DNA of 5,677 bases from Tannerella sp. (GTDB taxonomy: Bacteria; Bacteroidota; Bacteroidia; Bacteroidales; Tannerellaceae). Positions 1-5,677 of the stretch are shown in pieces. A program made the translations under genes and the position numbers. Below the pieces are notes generated by a model, which ran no database searches, had not been told where the DNA came from, and worked only from the letters and a program-made list of their open reading frames with translations. Positions within the stretch are counted from its first letter, which is position 1; every line of letters starts with the position of its first letter. The stretch covers positions 1 through 5,677 of the forward strand of contig JAITBC010000126.1 in NCBI GenBank assembly GCA_031283785.1, in the 5' to 3' direction.

Positions 1-2250
1 GCAACGTTACAGGAGATAGAACAGGTCATACGTGATAAAACATGGACGCCGGATCAGAGCGACAGTTCCGATGTAATGGAATTTACGCCGTTTGTCTCGA
101 TTGTTCCCGAACGCGAATACAGCCGTCCGGTTTCCCTGATGAGAGAGATTCCGATGGAAGCGTTAAAACCCAAAGGGATAAAAAACATTTGGGTTTTAGG
201 GCCTTCTGCCGGTATTTCCAAAGAAACGGCCGCCATATTAATGCGTCCCGTAAATGGCATTTCCTTAGGGCAAATCGTGGGGGAAAAAGTTGTTTCCGGG
301 ATAAAGGACAAAACGGCGTCAAAGGATGTAAGGGTATATAATCCGGTTATAAAAAAAGGAGAGAATAAAGGCGAAATACGTGAATTGTTGTTCCCCTTAC
401 GCCCTGACGGGCTGAAAGACAAGGTATTGTCCCCCGTTTCCGCTTTGCCGGTGCTGGGTTCTTACAATGTGGTTGTCATGGGAGGCGGTACTGCCGGCGC
501 CCCTGCCGGTATATCCGCTGCACGTCAGGGAGCCGGCACTTTAGTACTGGAATATTTACACGGGCTTGGAGGCATTATGACACTCGGATTAATCGGAAGG
601 TATTGGGATGGATATCGTGAAGGATTTTCTTCGGAAATAGACAACGGCGTCCGTTCAATGGCTCCGCCGGATCATCCGCGACAATTAAAGGACTGGAAAG
701 ACGCCCATTCTTCGGACTGGAAACAGGAATTTTTTCGCAGGGAATTACGAAAAGCAGGCGGCGAACTTTGGTTCGGGGTTTTAGGCAGCGGCGCTTTGGT
801 AAAAGATAATCAGGTAAAGGGTATCGTTGTAAGCACACCATACGGACAGGGAGTTGTTCTTGCAGATGAGATTATCGACAGTACCGGGAGTGCAGATATA
901 GCCATAGCAGCGGGCGCGGTTTACAATTATACAGGGAAACATGTTGCCGTACAGGGCGCCGGTATGGGAGCCTGGGAGCCTGAAGATTATTATAATAATA
1001 ATGACTGGGCGTTTATTGATGATACGGACGTCCTGGATATAAGTCGTATTTATGTGCAAGCCAAGAAAAAACTTACAGGCGCGTATGACATGGTCAAATT
1101 GCCGCAAACGCGGGAGCGAAGGCGTATTGTCGGAGAATATTCCGTTTCCGTTTATGACGTCATAAGCAAACGGCGTTATCCTGATACGATCTCGTATCAT
1201 AAGAGTTCATTCGATACGCACGGTATGATTGTCGATCCCTATTTTATATTATCTCCACCGGAAAAAAGACATGTCATATACGACGCCGACGTGCCTTTAC
1301 GCGCTTTATTGCCGAAAGGATTGAGCGGTATTCTGGTTACCGGTCTGGGAACAAGCGCTGATCGCGACGCAATGCCTGTGATAAGGATGCAGGCCTGCTT
1401 GCAGAATCAGGGGTATGCCGTCGGATACCTGGCTGCATTGGCCGTGCGTGAAAATAAACCGGTTACTGAAGTGGATATAAAGAAAGTTCAAAAGTATTTG
1501 GTCGGTATGGGTAACCTTCCTGACCGTATTTTGAAAGAAAAGCCATTTAAAGGATACGACAACAGGAATTTTGCGGAAGCAGCCCGGAGCGCTAAAGATA
1601 ATTATAAGGGACTGGAGGTTTTACTGACCGATCCTGTCCGGTGTATGCCGGCGCTCAGGAAAGAGATGCTTGCGGCAGTTTCGGAAAACGACCGTATAAT
1701 GTATGCTTCTATCCTTTGTATATTGGGCGATAAAACCTGCGCCTCCGTTTTAGCAGACGAGATTAAAAGGAATGAGAAATGGGACGCCGGATGGAATTAT
1801 ATAGGTATGGGACAATTCGGCCCGTGTATGAGCCGCTTGGATTCTTTATTGATAGCATTAGGCAAATCCCACGACAGCCGTTATTTGCCGGTCGTATCGG
1901 AGAAAGCGCTGTTACTGAATCCGGAAAATACGTTCTCGCATTTCCGGGCGGTAGCTACTGCTATGGAAGATTTGAAAAGCGCCGACGCTGCGCCTGTTCT
2001 TTACGATATGTTGCTCATGCCGGATATGCGGTATCATCATATCGAATCTTACCGTGACGCCCGAAGAAAGACGGTTCCCGGTATAGACGATGATAGCGTA
2101 AGGAATATGGCGCTGAGAGAACTTCATTTGGCCCGTGCTTTATATATGTGCGGCGATAAGGATCGACTGGGGGAAACGATACTGAATAATTATGCAAAAG
2201 GTTTACAGGGACATTATGCCCGTTATGCAAACACGGCATTGAATCAGTGA
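1..2250 (+). CDS. Large FAD-dependent oxidoreductase with tandem flavoprotein modules, 5' end outside window
   Basis: The frame is open from base 1, so the gene enters from upstream; the ATG at 76 is internal, because residues before and after it are continuous and the first recognisable motif would otherwise be headless. Numbering from base 1 gives 749 visible residues. Residues 49-96 (IPMEALKPKG, then NIWVLG, then MRP...LGQIVG) match the C-terminal signature of the FAD_oxidored family. Residues about 155-515 form a second, complete module: GxGxxG at G161/G163/G166 (VVVMGGGTAG), a DSTG motif at 293-296, RERRRIVGEY at 371-380, and a second copy of the C-terminal signature at 431-475 (VPLRALLPKG). 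Residues about 521-749 are a Leu/Ala-rich, probably helical domain resembling HEAT-type repeats. The family oxidises C-H/C-OH groups using FAD; the substrate here is unknown, possibly a sugar derivative. Location cannot be judged without the N-terminus. The stop is 17 bases before the next gene's ATG, so the two are probably co-transcribed. Confidence 0.88.
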   Translation, partial: ATLQEIEQVIRDKTWTPDQSDSSDVMEFTPFVSIVPEREYSRPVSLMREIPMEALKPKGIKNIWVLGPSAGISKETAAILMRPVNGISLGQIVGEKVVSGIKDKTASKDVRVYNPVIKKGENKGEIRELLFPLRPDGLKDKVLSPVSALPVLGSYNVVVMGGGTAGAPAGISAARQGAGTLVLEYLHGLGGIMTLGLIGRYWDGYREGFSSEIDNGVRSMAPPDHPRQLKDWKDAHSSDWKQEFFRRELRKAGGELWFGVLGSGALVKDNQVKGIVVSTPYGQGVVLADEIIDSTGSADIAIAAGAVYNYTGKHVAVQGAGMGAWEPEDYYNNNDWAFIDDTDVLDISRIYVQAKKKLTGAYDMVKLPQTRERRRIVGEYSVSVYDVISKRRYPDTISYHKSSFDTHGMIVDPYFILSPPEKRHVIYDADVPLRALLPKGLSGILVTGLGTSADRDAMPVIRMQACLQNQGYAVGYLAALAVRENKPVTEVDIKKVQKYLVGMGNLPDRILKEKPFKGYDNRNFAEAARSAKDNYKGLEVLLTDPVRCMPALRKEMLAAVSENDRIMYASILCILGDKTCASVLADEIKRNEKWDAGWNYIGMGQFGPCMSRLDSLLIALGKSHDSRYLPVVSEKALLLNPENTFSHFRAVATAMEDLKSADAAPVLYDMLLMPDMRYHHIESYRDARRKTVPGIDDDSVRNMALRELHLARALYMCGDKDRLGETILNNYAKGLQGHYARYANTALNQ

Positions 2251-2267
2251 TACATACAGAGTTAATC

Positions 2268-3776
2268 ATGAAAAAGCAAACAAGAAGAGATTTTATCAAA
2301 CATTCTACAATCGGTGGTATTGCTGCAACAACCGGTTTATCAGGATTATACATGAAAAGTTACGGCGCATCGTCCGCTGACGGCGTGGAAGCGAAAAGCG
2401 CTTATTCTTTTAAACGGGATATTCCTGTGGATAGTGAAGTGTACGATTTGATTATCGCAGGCGGTGGTCCTGCGGGTATTGGCGCAGGTATCGCCGCTGC
2501 GCGGCTGGGCGCAAAAGCGCTGATTATTGAAGCGATGGGATGCCTTGGGGGAATGGGAACATCAGGACTGGTGACCGCTTTCGACCCGATGGCGAACGGA
2601 GAGGAAATGCTGGTAGGCGGTATCATGCACGAAATTGTCTTCAAAATGTATGAACGTGGATTTCTCGGACCGCGAGAGAAACCGGAGGTGTTTGCGAAGT
2701 CCTATCATCACTGGACAAGTTTTCATGCGGAAGGATACAAGTTACTGCTTGACGAAATGATCGTGGAAGCCGGTATTGAAGTACGTTTTTTTACACGTGT
2801 GATCGCGGCGGACGCCGACCCGAAAAAAGGCCGGGTTAATGGTATCATCCAGCAGAATGTGGAAGGGTTGCGTTATGTCAGGGCGAAAACGTTTATTGAT
2901 GCGACAGGCGACGCGATCTTGTCGGAGTTTTGCGGAGTGAAATATCGTGAAGCCGGTATAGACATGCCCGGCGCTATGCCGCCTACGCTCTGTTCGTATG
3001 TTGCGAATGTAAACGGAAAACACGCCGGAAATGGCGGGCAGGAATCGCCTGCGCTATTCAAAGCCATTGCAGACGGCCATTTCACACAACCGGACAAGCA
3101 TGTGCCAGGCGCATTTCACGTAAGTGAAACAATCAATTACTTCAATACAGGCCATGTTTTTGGAACAAATGCCATGAATTGTGCAAGTCTTACGCAAGCT
3201 ATGATAAAAGGACGTAAAATAGTACAGGAGTTTGTTTCGTATTATAAAAAGTATGTACCCGGATATGAAAACATAGAGTTAGTGGCTACGGCAGCGTTAT
3301 TAGGCGTGCGCGAATCGCGGCGGATTGTCGGCGAATACGAATTGTGCTATGCCGATTATGAAGCCCGTCGCCATTTCCCTGATCAGATAGGTATTTTTAA
3401 TAAAGCGGTTGATATCCATATATACGATACTTCGGAAGAAGAATATCAGCGCTACAGAGATGAATATACCCGGACTTCCCGGCTCAACCCCGGCGAGTAT
3501 TTCGGAATTCCCTATTCCATATTAGCGCCCAAAGGGTGGACAAATTTGTGGGTAGCAGGCCGGTGCAATTCGAGCGACGTCAAAGTACATGGTTCCATAC
3601 GTGTACAGCCGGCCGCCAATATGATGGGACAAGCTGCCGGTACGGCTGCCGTCCAGTCCATCCGTACCGGGCAGCCCGCCTGCGACCTGAATACGGAAGA
3701 ATTGGTGAAAACCTTACGGAAGGCCGGCGCTAATTTGCCTCAAAAAACTTTATCATCCAAAATGACACGTTCCTGA
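2268..3776 (+). CDS. Tat-exported FAD-dependent oxidoreductase (FAD_oxidored family)
   Basis: This complete gene encodes 502 residues, a normal length for the family. The start is the ATG at 2268 because it places a twin-arginine signal right at the N-terminus: TRRDFIKHS at residues 5-13 followed by a hydrophobic Gly/Ala/Thr-rich stretch to about residue 35. A GTG at 2247 overlaps the upstream stop (GTGA) and would add seven residues; it is possible but less likely. Residues 61-70 (LIIAGGGPAG) are the FAD ADP-binding loop with G65/G67/G70. CLGGMGTSG at 92-100, DATGDA at 211-216, RESRRIVGEY at 348-357, VDIH at 381-384 and the C-terminal signature IPYSILAPKG...NLWVAGRCNSS...GSIRVQP...MGQAAG at 414-458 are all family hallmarks. 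Tat export implies folding with FAD in the cytoplasm and work in the periplasm. Proteins of this family are sometimes mislabelled xanthan lyase in databases; nothing here indicates a lyase. The substrate is unknown, and the setting beside GH16 and Gfo/Idh/MocA genes suggests a carbohydrate. Confidence 0.93.
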   Translation: MKKQTRRDFIKHSTIGGIAATTGLSGLYMKSYGASSADGVEAKSAYSFKRDIPVDSEVYDLIIAGGGPAGIGAGIAAARLGAKALIIEAMGCLGGMGTSGLVTAFDPMANGEEMLVGGIMHEIVFKMYERGFLGPREKPEVFAKSYHHWTSFHAEGYKLLLDEMIVEAGIEVRFFTRVIAADADPKKGRVNGIIQQNVEGLRYVRAKTFIDATGDAILSEFCGVKYREAGIDMPGAMPPTLCSYVANVNGKHAGNGGQESPALFKAIADGHFTQPDKHVPGAFHVSETINYFNTGHVFGTNAMNCASLTQAMIKGRKIVQEFVSYYKKYVPGYENIELVATAALLGVRESRRIVGEYELCYADYEARRHFPDQIGIFNKAVDIHIYDTSEEEYQRYRDEYTRTSRLNPGEYFGIPYSILAPKGWTNLWVAGRCNSSDVKVHGSIRVQPAANMMGQAAGTAAVQSIRTGQPACDLNTEELVKTLRKAGANLPQKTLSSKMTRS

Positions 3777-4004
3777 TATAAATAATAATAATATTCTAAA
3801 AAAAATAGACTGTATGAATAGACGAACATTTGTAAAAAACGCAGGTTATATAGGTTTGGCAGCAGGTCTTCCAACCGCGGGAAGCGCCGCCGTTTCCAAC
3901 GGTCAGGATAAAAAAGGCAACATGCTGCTGCAAAAGAAAATACCGGTTGACGGCCAGTGGGATGTTATAGTTGCCGGCGGCGGCTCCGGGTTTCGGAGCA
4001 ACTT

Positions 4005-4029
4005 CCGCATAAATTTTATACATTTGCGG
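4005..4029. repeat. Imperfect inverted repeat at the pseudogene breakpoint
   Basis: Arms ccgca(ta)aat at 4005-4014 and atttgcgg at 4022-4029 are complementary over 8 base pairs with a two-base bulge and a 7-base loop. The left arm begins in the last flavoprotein-like codons and the right arm lies beyond them, so the repeat sits across the point where coding homology ends. This arrangement is compatible with a recombination or excision scar but may be chance in AT-rich DNA. Confidence 0.4.
4019..4026 (+). promoter_or_regulatory. Candidate Bacteroidetes -7 promoter box (TAnnTTTG) ahead of the GH16 gene
   Basis: TACATTTG fits the known Bacteroidetes -7 consensus TAnnTTTG exactly. It would start a transcript near 4033 and give a leader of about 155 bases before the GH16 ATG at 4189, containing the 4117-4138 inverted repeat. 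No good TTTG -33 element lies 19-21 bases upstream, which lowers confidence. The same bases form the right arm of the 4005-4029 repeat. Confidence 0.35.
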
Positions 4030-4116
4030 CATGGTTGATAATTCTCTTAGCTCTCGTATTGTAATTTAAGTTGCCATCATACAGTAACGATTGGGTATAG
4101 TTATTGATAGTGCCTC

Positions 4117-4138
4117 TATTGATTTTAGTAAATCAATA
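4117..4138. repeat. Perfect 9-bp inverted repeat in the GH16 leader
   Basis: The arms tattgattt (4117-4125) and aaatcaata (4130-4138) are perfect reverse complements around a TAGT loop. The repeat lies 51 bases before the GH16 ATG. It has no following T-run and an AT-rich stem, so it does not look like an intrinsic terminator. It could be a regulator operator or a leader RNA hairpin. A further TATTGAT copy at 4102-4108 lies 15 bases before the left arm in the same orientation, which suits a multi-site operator. Confidence 0.55.
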
Positions 4139-4144
4139 TATTTC
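4137..4144 (+). promoter_or_regulatory. Near-consensus -7 box overlapping the inverted repeat
   Basis: TATATTTC differs from TAnnTTTG only in the last base and overlaps the right end of the 9-bp inverted repeat. If used, transcription would begin near 4151, giving a leader of about 38 bases, and a protein bound at the repeat would block it. There is no TTTG at the -33 position (4113-4116 reads cctc), so this is a weak alternative to the box at 4019. Confidence 0.25.
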
Positions 4145-4170
4145 GGGTTACTTGTTAATTGAAAAAAAGA

Positions 4171-4176
4171 AAAGGA
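4171..4176 (+). promoter_or_regulatory. Possible ribosome binding site for the GH16 gene
   Basis: AAAGGA ends 12 bases before the ATG at 4189. The spacing is slightly long, but it is the only purine-rich Shine-Dalgarno-like stretch near any start in this window, and it supports the ATG at 4189 over the in-frame TTG at 4159, which would place this site inside the gene. Confidence 0.4.
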
Positions 4177-4188
4177 ATTTGTAAGTTT

Positions 4189-5490
4189 ATGAAAAGAAAT
4201 GTTGTTATTTTAGGGTTAATAGTGCTGATCAAAATTTGTGTTGTAAACGAATTGAAACCGCAAAATCATACGGGTTTCACTGATATCTACAAAGACTTCA
4301 ATTACGGACAAAACACGGATAAGAATACGGAGTGGATACAAGCCATTCAAGTTATAGAACCGGCTTGTCGTTCAGAAGTAAAAGGACAAGTAATCGTTAA
4401 ATTCAAAGCTCCGGGCATGGAACAAGCTAAAGCTTTTTGCTGGCGGCAACCGACCAAAGAAAATCCAAGCGAATGGGGGACTGATGTTAATTTGACTCCC
4501 CAAATATTGAAATTAGCAAAAAAAGGAGAAAGTGCATTCTCCTTTAATGCAGATGATTTTCCGGCAGGTCCGATGAATATCCGTATATACGCGCAAAACA
4601 AAAAGGGAGAGCATGATGTCTTTGAACTTCAATTGTATAATCTCGGTGGAGTTAAATGGAATATGGGAATTCCCTTGTCTGATCCTCCTGCGGCAAAAGG
4701 CTTAAAATTAGTATTCTCCGATGACTTCAATGGACCTTTGTCTATTTCAAACGATGGTCGTAATGCAAGATATAATGCACACAAACCACGTTTCGGCGAT
4801 TTTAGCGGCTGGCAATTTGCGGATGTGGACGGTCTCGATAATCCATTCAAACAGGTAGACAGTTATTTAAAAATAGAGGCGCGTAAAAAATCCGGCACAA
4901 AAGGAAGCAGCGGACTTATCGCTTCGGTTGATATGGATGGTAAGGGTTTCTGGGTAAAAGCTCCATGTTATTTGGAATGTCGTTTTATAGCACAATCGGC
5001 TCCCGGAACATGGCCTGCTTTTTGGACGATTACTCATCTTGACAGAGGAACTCAAGGAGATGAACTTGATATAGTTGAGGCTTATGGCGGTGTAGGGAAA
5101 GGAAATCCTAATCATCCCGGATATAGTCTTGTGAGCCATTTCTGGGGACAAAGCAATCCGGACGGAAGCGAAAAGAAGCATCCCGATAAAGTTGTTCCTA
5201 TTATGGAACTTGGCAGTAAATCTTACTGGTCAACTACTTTTCACACTTATGGAGTATATATCGGCTTAGAAGAAACGGTATATTATTTTGACAATATTGA
5301 AGTATTTCGTCATCCGACAAATCATATTTCACGCGACTATCCACATGTTTTTCTTATCAATTATGCCATAGGAGGCATTAGCGGTTGGTCCATTGATCTG
5401 GAGCGTTATGGAAACGGTTCGGATATGTATGTTGATTTCGTTCGCGTATATGCTTTATATAATGTTGATTACGTGCAAGAAGAGAAATAA
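4189..5490 (+). CDS. Secreted family 16 glycoside hydrolase (beta-glucanase/agarase-like)
   Basis: The gene encodes 433 residues from the ATG at 4189; an in-frame TTG at 4159 is a less likely start. Residues 2-19 have two basic residues and then a hydrophobic run (VVILGLIVLIKICVV), a probable signal peptide, though with a Lys inside it. Residues about 45-155 look like an all-beta accessory domain, probably Ig-like. The GH16 jelly roll spans about 172-422: LVFSDDFNG at 174-182, GTWPAFW at 273-279, and the active-site motif ELDIVE at 292-297. By family knowledge E292 is the nucleophile, D294 the assisting acid and E297 the acid/base. The ExDxxE form marks the beta-bulge branch that holds laminarinases, agarases and porphyranases. 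The end (MYVDFVRVYA, 413-422) is the usual last GH16 strand, so the enzyme is intact. It should hydrolyse internal beta-1,3/1,4 bonds of a glucan or galactan outside the cytoplasm. It is more AT-rich than its neighbours on both sides. The precise substrate cannot be read from the sequence. Confidence 0.93.
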   Translation: MKRNVVILGLIVLIKICVVNELKPQNHTGFTDIYKDFNYGQNTDKNTEWIQAIQVIEPACRSEVKGQVIVKFKAPGMEQAKAFCWRQPTKENPSEWGTDVNLTPQILKLAKKGESAFSFNADDFPAGPMNIRIYAQNKKGEHDVFELQLYNLGGVKWNMGIPLSDPPAAKGLKLVFSDDFNGPLSISNDGRNARYNAHKPRFGDFSGWQFADVDGLDNPFKQVDSYLKIEARKKSGTKGSSGLIASVDMDGKGFWVKAPCYLECRFIAQSAPGTWPAFWTITHLDRGTQGDELDIVEAYGGVGKGNPNHPGYSLVSHFWGQSNPDGSEKKHPDKVVPIMELGSKSYWSTTFHTYGVYIGLEETVYYFDNIEVFRHPTNHISRDYPHVFLINYAIGGISGWSIDLERYGNGSDMYVDFVRVYALYNVDYVQEEK

Positions 5491-5544
5491 ACAATGAAGA
5501 ATGTATTTTTATTATATACAAATCATGTTAACTAAATTTCAAAT

Positions 5545-5677
5545 ATGAGAGAAAAAAGAAAACTCAAAATGGGCATGGTTGGCGGCGGAAGCGACGCCTT
5601 TATCGGAGCCATACACCGTCGTGCGGCATTCATGGATAACCTGATCGAACTGGTTTGCGGTTGTTTCAGCGTTAACC
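5545..5677 (+). CDS. Gfo/Idh/MocA-family NAD(P)-dependent oxidoreductase, N-terminal part only
   Basis: Forty-four codons are visible before the window ends. The start chosen is the ATG at 5545; in-frame ATGs at 5569 and 5575 would begin inside or just before the first strand of the fold and are less likely. Residues 9-21 (MGMVGGGSDAFIG) are the Rossmann dinucleotide-binding loop, followed by AIHRRAAFMD and LIELVCGCFSVN, the beta1-alphaA-beta2 pattern of Gfo/Idh/MocA enzymes. There is no signal peptide, so it should act in the cytoplasm. Members oxidise or reduce sugars, inositols and related polyols with bound NAD(P). It follows the GH16 stop by 54 AT-rich bases lacking a clear terminator, so co-transcription is possible. 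Its base composition resembles the flavoprotein genes more than the GH16 gene. The catalytic Lys/His and substrate domain lie outside the window, so specificity is unknown. Confidence 0.88.
   Translation, partial: MREKRKLKMGMVGGGSDAFIGAIHRRAAFMDNLIELVCGCFSVN

Follow-up and report, generated by a model that had tools for sequence, protein, structure and literature searches.

In Rab GDI and REP, a flavoprotein-like fold is kept while the binding of flavin adenine dinucleotide (FAD) has been lost; these proteins form a separate family and, unlike the degenerate module described here, are not fused to an active flavoprotein module. Closer in sequence to the present subject are the single-module proteins of Pfam family PF12831 (FAD_oxidored). 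Here, we focus on the first open reading frame (ORF 1) of a 5,677-nucleotide stretch of DNA from Tannerella sp. (GenBank assembly GCA_031283785.1, contig JAITBC010000126.1, positions 1 to 5,677 of the forward strand), which is called the window throughout. Its product shares with single-module proteins, such as that of the next gene in the window and those of the neighbour-gene cluster c3 of related loci, the fold class and a C-terminal signature (IPxxxLxPKG..LWVxG..R..GqaaG), its first module giving a weaker match than its second. The ORF 1 family differs from them in having two modules per chain, of which the first is without flavin-site residues, and a HEAT-like tail.

Two further systems invite comparison. 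In the trypanosome AdoMetDC-prozyme heteromer (PMC5201418), a dead paralogue is kept beside an active one, as in the tandem family; the tandem family differs in fusing both in one chain and in having a flavoprotein fold. GMC-type glycoside 3-oxidases and C-glycoside oxidases (PMC10646112, PMC11673046) carry out FAD-dependent oxidation of sugar hydroxyls, a chemistry that the tandem family would share if our guess at the substrate is right. Membership of ORF 1 in that group was considered and rejected, with no GMC oxidoreductase domain among its Pfam matches up to E 1. We know of no fusion with a degenerate module among GMC glycoside oxidases.

We favour, with a probability of about 0.6, the reading that ORF 1 holds the last 749 residues of an exported flavoprotein of ~1000 residues, arranged as signal, N module, C module and HEAT-like tail, in which a single FAD would be bound in the C module and the N module would be a non-catalytic partner. 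The parts within ORF 1 are as follows.

1..450, forward strand: C-terminal part (last ~150 aa) of the degenerate N module, in a gene that extends left of base 1; placed by alignment with full-length relatives.
145..288, forward strand: C-terminal signature of the N module, residues 49-96 (IPxxxLxPKG..NIWVLG..RP..LGQxxG); from the sequence and a shuffle test.
463..1515, forward strand: second FAD_oxidored module (C module), residues 155-505; from PF12831 and the C profile.
481..498, forward strand: FAD loop of the C module, GGGTAG, residues 161-166; from the sequence and the conservation of the loop glycines.
1291..1425, forward strand: C-terminal signature of the C module, residues 431-475 (VPxxxLxPKG..GILVTG..IRMQ); from the sequence.
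1516..2247, forward strand: helical HEAT-like tail, residues 506-749, with the stop codon at 2248-2250; from HEAT_PBS in relatives and confident helices in the window model.

ORF 1 (window 1-2250) is open at the left edge. A sequence-only reading of the window had proposed that the C-terminal signature of PF12831 stands ahead of the second module's GGGTAG loop and recurs further on and in the next gene, and translation and alignment confirmed both points. The first copy reads IPMEALKPKG (49-58), NIWVLG (62-67), MRP (81-83) and LGQIVG (89-94); the second, behind GGGTAG at 161-166, reads VPLRALLPKG from 431, GILVTG (443-448) and IRMQ (461-464); and the next gene has, near its end, IPYSILAPKG ... 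NLWVAGR ... IRVQP ... MGQAAG. Local alignment gave scores of 55 for the first against the second signature, 65 for the first against gene 2 and 75 for the second against gene 2, and 0 of 500 shuffles reached the observed score in each of the three comparisons (shuffled means ~23, standard deviation ~4). The N profile matches ORF 1 at 131 bits over residues 1-148 and the C profile at 649 bits over residues 150-504, and PF12831 matches the whole ORF at 173.6 bits (cutoff 27) in two stretches, the best being 368-500.

Alignment with full-length relatives places window residue 1 close to residue 253 in a protein of ~1001 residues. An upstream start close to base 1 had been raised as a possible argument against a first module; base 1 falls ~252 residues inside the protein, and the start is therefore not near it. 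Homology search found 2791 proteins at E <=0.001 among 7997 scored candidates. Among the 120 matches listed most are ~1000 aa long, and the closest full-length relatives there are P0002 (83%) and P0004 (80%), both of 1001 residues. The full-length layout is a start resembling a twin-arginine translocation (Tat) signal, the N module, the C module from about residue 405 and a tail of ~250 residues. Pfam TAT_signal is above its cutoff in Proteiniphilum acetatigenes L010, whereas in a separate scan of 8 relatives it was listed for 7, each time below the cutoff. Confident helices in the window model support the proposed helical tail. HEAT_PBS (PF03130) exceeds its cutoff of 20.9 in 2 of the 8 full-length relatives scanned (P0009 at 21.6, P0014 at 22.3) and does not appear among the matches of the remaining six or of the window protein. 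The build is unusual against single-module PF12831 proteins, as had been said, but it is that of a recurrent family. Where source labels for the ~1000-residue relatives are given, they read 'FAD-dependent oxidoreductase', 'hypothetical protein' or the names of other flavoproteins, and no description of the tandem architecture was found in the literature searched, which leaves most subscription journals out of reach. One genome of the planctomycete draw (G425, contig C1) carries seven tandem genes with frames of 1040-1383 aa, a lineage expansion.

On the evidence of profiles and predicted fold, the first module in relatives is a true FAD_oxidored module, as the sequence-only reading had supposed of the part before the visible one. 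PF12831 was run on the N parts of two relatives given alone, and both pass the cutoff of 27: 54.1 bits for L010 (403 aa with signal) and 87.3 bits for the planctomycete protein L067. Comparison of the N and C profiles aligned 285 columns with a probability of 98.7%. The N module of L001 is predicted to take a flavoprotein fold of the two-dinucleotide-binding type with a predicted local distance difference test (pLDDT) score of 91, and its structure matches are flavoproteins. The middle (substrate) region is shorter in N than in C, and in L067 an F5/8C domain is inserted inside the N module.

Although the N module keeps its predicted fold, it has lost the flavin-binding residues in every relative read. 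The alignment was built from the best 80 of 222 confirmed loci, of which 76 have frames of at least 840 aa (L008, L031, L041 and L062 were left out), and with the window it makes 77 rows; the N loop is visible in 73 of these, the window, L035, L040 and L053 not showing it. In all 73, the third loop glycine is Ser or Thr, the acidic residue ending strand 2 is Ala, Gly, Cys, Thr or Ser, and the second glycine of the LGG motif is Glu, Asp, Ala or Asn; the glycine of the TG motif is absent in all 76 rows that reach it. The first loop glycine is kept in all rows. A conserved stretch stands in place of LGG (Y 73/73, G 73/73, D 71/73, C 71/73). In the C modules, loop glycines 1, 3 and 6, the acidic residue (E in 58, D in 19), GG and the TG glycine are kept in 77/77, and the Asp behind the TG motif in 76. 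The third loop glycine, the acidic residue, the second LGG glycine and the TG glycine are each missing from the N modules of all 12 divergent tandems (L081-L092; N-profile E 5.6e-31 to 3.8e-77), which were picked from weaker genome-search rows and not at random. The N loop of P0002, which lies outside the 77 rows, reads GGASAA.

The expectation that each module would have its own GxGxxG is not supported, since all 85 N loops read (73 and 12 divergent) are without the third glycine, and with the other flavin-site residues gone and a shorter middle region the claim of two complete flavoprotein domains is not supported either. As the residues are lost in N and kept in C, a two-step oxidase is unsupported and a pseudo-dimer with one active site fits better. 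The suggested self-dimer stands in so far as the chain may form a pseudo-dimer with one active half.

Single-module proteins serve as controls. Flavin motifs are canonical in all four proteins of the gene-2 type that were read (window gene 2, L001_6, L006_4 and L040_1) and in four more distant stand-alone proteins (L093-L096). Cluster c3, made up of 43 proteins neighbouring tandem genes (42 readable), has loops that begin GGT, GGN or GGG; its members are mostly without the third glycine, and the acidic residue is absent in 13 of 42. Those two losses alone are therefore no proof of a lost flavin; it is the combination that sets the N modules apart, because c3 proteins, like the other single-module relatives read and unlike N modules, retain GG behind strand 2 as well as the GD of their YEGD/ELGD motif (42/42). 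A subgroup of c3 (L003_2, L004_3, L010_7, L045_3 and nine others) has the loop GGTSAA, with variants GGTSSA and GGTSGA, no acidic residue after strand 2, and retains LGG (MGG in one) and EGD; it is possibly an intermediate state.

The N module has nevertheless been retained. Sixteen columns are invariant across 65 N modules from both phyla (65 of 72 were used in alignment A2). Mean identity is 0.44 for N against 0.64 for C (71 proteins). The ratio of nonsynonymous to synonymous substitution (dN/dS, Nei-Gojobori) is 0.08-0.20 for N and 0.009-0.069 for C and is higher for N in 12/12 pairs with both values, these values being rough because dS exceeds 1 in several pairs; of 15 pairs, 3 were saturated and gave no value for N and/or C, and some sequences occur in two pairs. 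By these ratios, both modules are under purifying selection. In a tree built from 58 modules, a fully supported branch separates the 19 N rows from the 20 C rows.

The fusion itself looks obligate within the sampled genomes, some short N-only records aside. Among 294 genomes from the phylum of L067, N-profile matches (E <=1e-20) occur in 22, those of G329 and G424 being weak single-module matches alone, and 30 C-profile matches (E <=1e-60) occur in 21. Of these 30, 28 share an open frame with an N match; the remaining two (G577, G442) lie at contig ends, so that N and C share a frame wherever a contig end does not intervene. Among 295 genomes from the order of L010, the same 7 match both profiles; the frame is unbroken in 6 and is interrupted in G027 by a single in-frame TAG within the C match. 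Scoring in these searches was confined to the top 6 or 7 candidates of each genome and may have passed over weak copies.

Since the flavin residues of N are lost in every relative read and N is still conserved, the protein probably works as a single enzyme that carries its own non-catalytic partner, not as two enzymes in one. We propose that the C module binds one FAD and performs one two-electron oxidation, the substrate most likely being a carbohydrate or glycoside that is oxidized at an alcohol carbon and, in Bacteroidota, captured by the neighbouring SusC/SusD system. The N module would be a pseudo-enzyme partner that packs on the C module where a second subunit would otherwise sit; it may hold the substrate or close the active site, and the insert in the L067 N module is of a carbohydrate-binding type. 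The tail would offer a scaffold or a surface for docking.

The gene neighbourhood suggests oxidation of a carbohydrate, perhaps of an amino sugar. In non-planctomycete loci with at least 6 kb upstream (n=46), genes of SusC and SusD clusters both lie upstream in 26; neighbours were clustered by BLAST, and the main SusC cluster and the two SusD clusters were each identified from representatives, the small SusC-like cluster c72 lying outside this check. Another FAD_oxidored-type gene is present in 34 of 67 loci. FecR-type genes were seen in 16 loci and ECF-sigma-type genes in 13. In planctomycete loci with at least 7 kb downstream, PIG-L, a 309-aa protein, PfkB, DUF4432 and a mannitol-dehydrogenase-like gene are found in 6/6, and a xylose-isomerase-like gene in 5/6. 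The L067 309-aa protein has no Pfam or NCBIfam match, and its profile resembles glucosamine-6-phosphate deaminase (E 2.8e-4). As a side observation, this protein (L067:14123-15049) and eight homologs (alignment A3) are conserved in planctomycetes.

For export, an RRxF motif occurs within the first 75 residues of 58 of 60 non-planctomycete rows, 57 of which have it by residue 20, and in none of the 12 planctomycete rows; the count was taken over 75 residues because start codons had been chosen with a preference for a Tat-like motif. By eye, several of the planctomycete N-termini (L063, L066, L067, L070, L072-L078, L080) are Sec- or lipoprotein-like. With no Tat motif there, loading of FAD after export would need explaining.

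Several observations weigh against the favoured reading. In the N modules, the sixth loop glycine is present in 23 of 73 rows and 3 of 12 divergent tandems, the Asp behind the TG motif is kept in one row (L078), and 3 of 12 divergent rows have a glycine one place before the TG position. The losses seen in c3, in both the third glycine and the acidic residue, indicate that some motif losses are tolerated. The absence of FAD from the N module is argued from its residues, and the packing of N on C in a pseudo-dimer is a guess; no solved close relative was found, matches in the Protein Data Bank covering mainly the dinucleotide-binding loop. The short N-only records may count against an obligate fusion, and the tree, being midpoint-rooted, does not separate internal duplication from fusion of two paralogues. 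Finally, 20 of the 46 loci are without the SusC and SusD pair as clustered here and planctomycete L078 (2.9 kb downstream) has none of the operon genes, so the carbohydrate link is not universal.

The alternative that survives best, though we consider it unlikely, is that the N module has turned into a domain for the binding of, or regulation by, a non-flavin ligand (a nucleotide, a sugar or the glycan itself), with a new site formed by YLG[ED]DxCG and NRSGRQ. The conserved stretch that replaces LGG fits this, as do the F5/8C insert in L067 and the annotation of PF00754 on many proteins among the matches listed; but residues of the NRSGRQ type may be merely structural, and only 3 of the 12 divergent tandems retain the Cys, while not all 12 have the Tyr. 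Less probable again, at roughly one chance in eight, is a protein in which both modules bind FAD and act in series as a two-step oxidase or pass electrons from flavin to flavin. It would account for the predicted flavoprotein fold of both modules (that of C in a poor window model), their common similarity to PF12831 and the purifying selection on N, and single-module c3 proteins, presumably flavoproteins, are mostly without the third glycine too. It is opposed by the joint absence of all four flavin-site features from every N row, divergent tandems included, by the shorter middle region and by the faster evolution of N in all 12 pairs. That N is left over from a fusion and now decaying, without present role, agrees with its lower identity and higher dN/dS but is very improbable given a dN/dS well below 1, the invariant columns in both phyla and an N module in frame with all 28 planctomycete C matches whose upstream side is not truncated at the end of a contig.

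Taking the one-FAD reading further, we tentatively suggest, at slightly less than even odds, an obligate intramolecular pseudo-dimer across Bacteroidota and Planctomycetota, encoded in glycan-uptake loci that make use of oxidation. In it, a FAD_oxidored half that has lost its flavin site would be fused to an intact one and be essential, its pocket having been remodelled to capture substrate or to control the intact half. The kept degenerate half would make these ~1000-residue proteins a defined case of a fused pseudo-enzyme, and an oxidative carbohydrate route is suggested both for the SusC/SusD loci of Bacteroidota and for the conserved operon of planctomycetes, whose genes include some of amino-sugar type.

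The rest of the window holds the following features.

2268..3776, forward strand: next gene, a single-module FAD_oxidored protein with a Tat-like signal and canonical motifs GGGPAG, E, LGG and TGD; from Pfam, TIGR01409 and motif reading.
3814..4038, forward strand: start of a third gene that resembles the single-module type, the similarity stopping after GGGSG; from its match to L006_4.
4189-5490: GH16-like gene; PF00722 at 25.7 bits (cutoff 22), weak similarity to EglC.
5545-5677: start of a further gene; no Pfam match for its 44 residues.

The next gene scores 308.4 bits with PF12831 and 22.5 bits with the Tat signal model TIGR01409 (cutoff 16.7). The gene start at 5545-5677 looks like one of the Gfo/Idh/MocA type. 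The third gene (3814-4038) has no Pfam family, and its best match among neighbour ORFs is L006_4 (residues 1-57, E 3e-5). It has a Tat-like start and then breaks off inside the FAD loop, with unrelated sequence from about 3990 up to the GH16-like gene; the break could reflect a deletion, an insertion or a join made in assembly.
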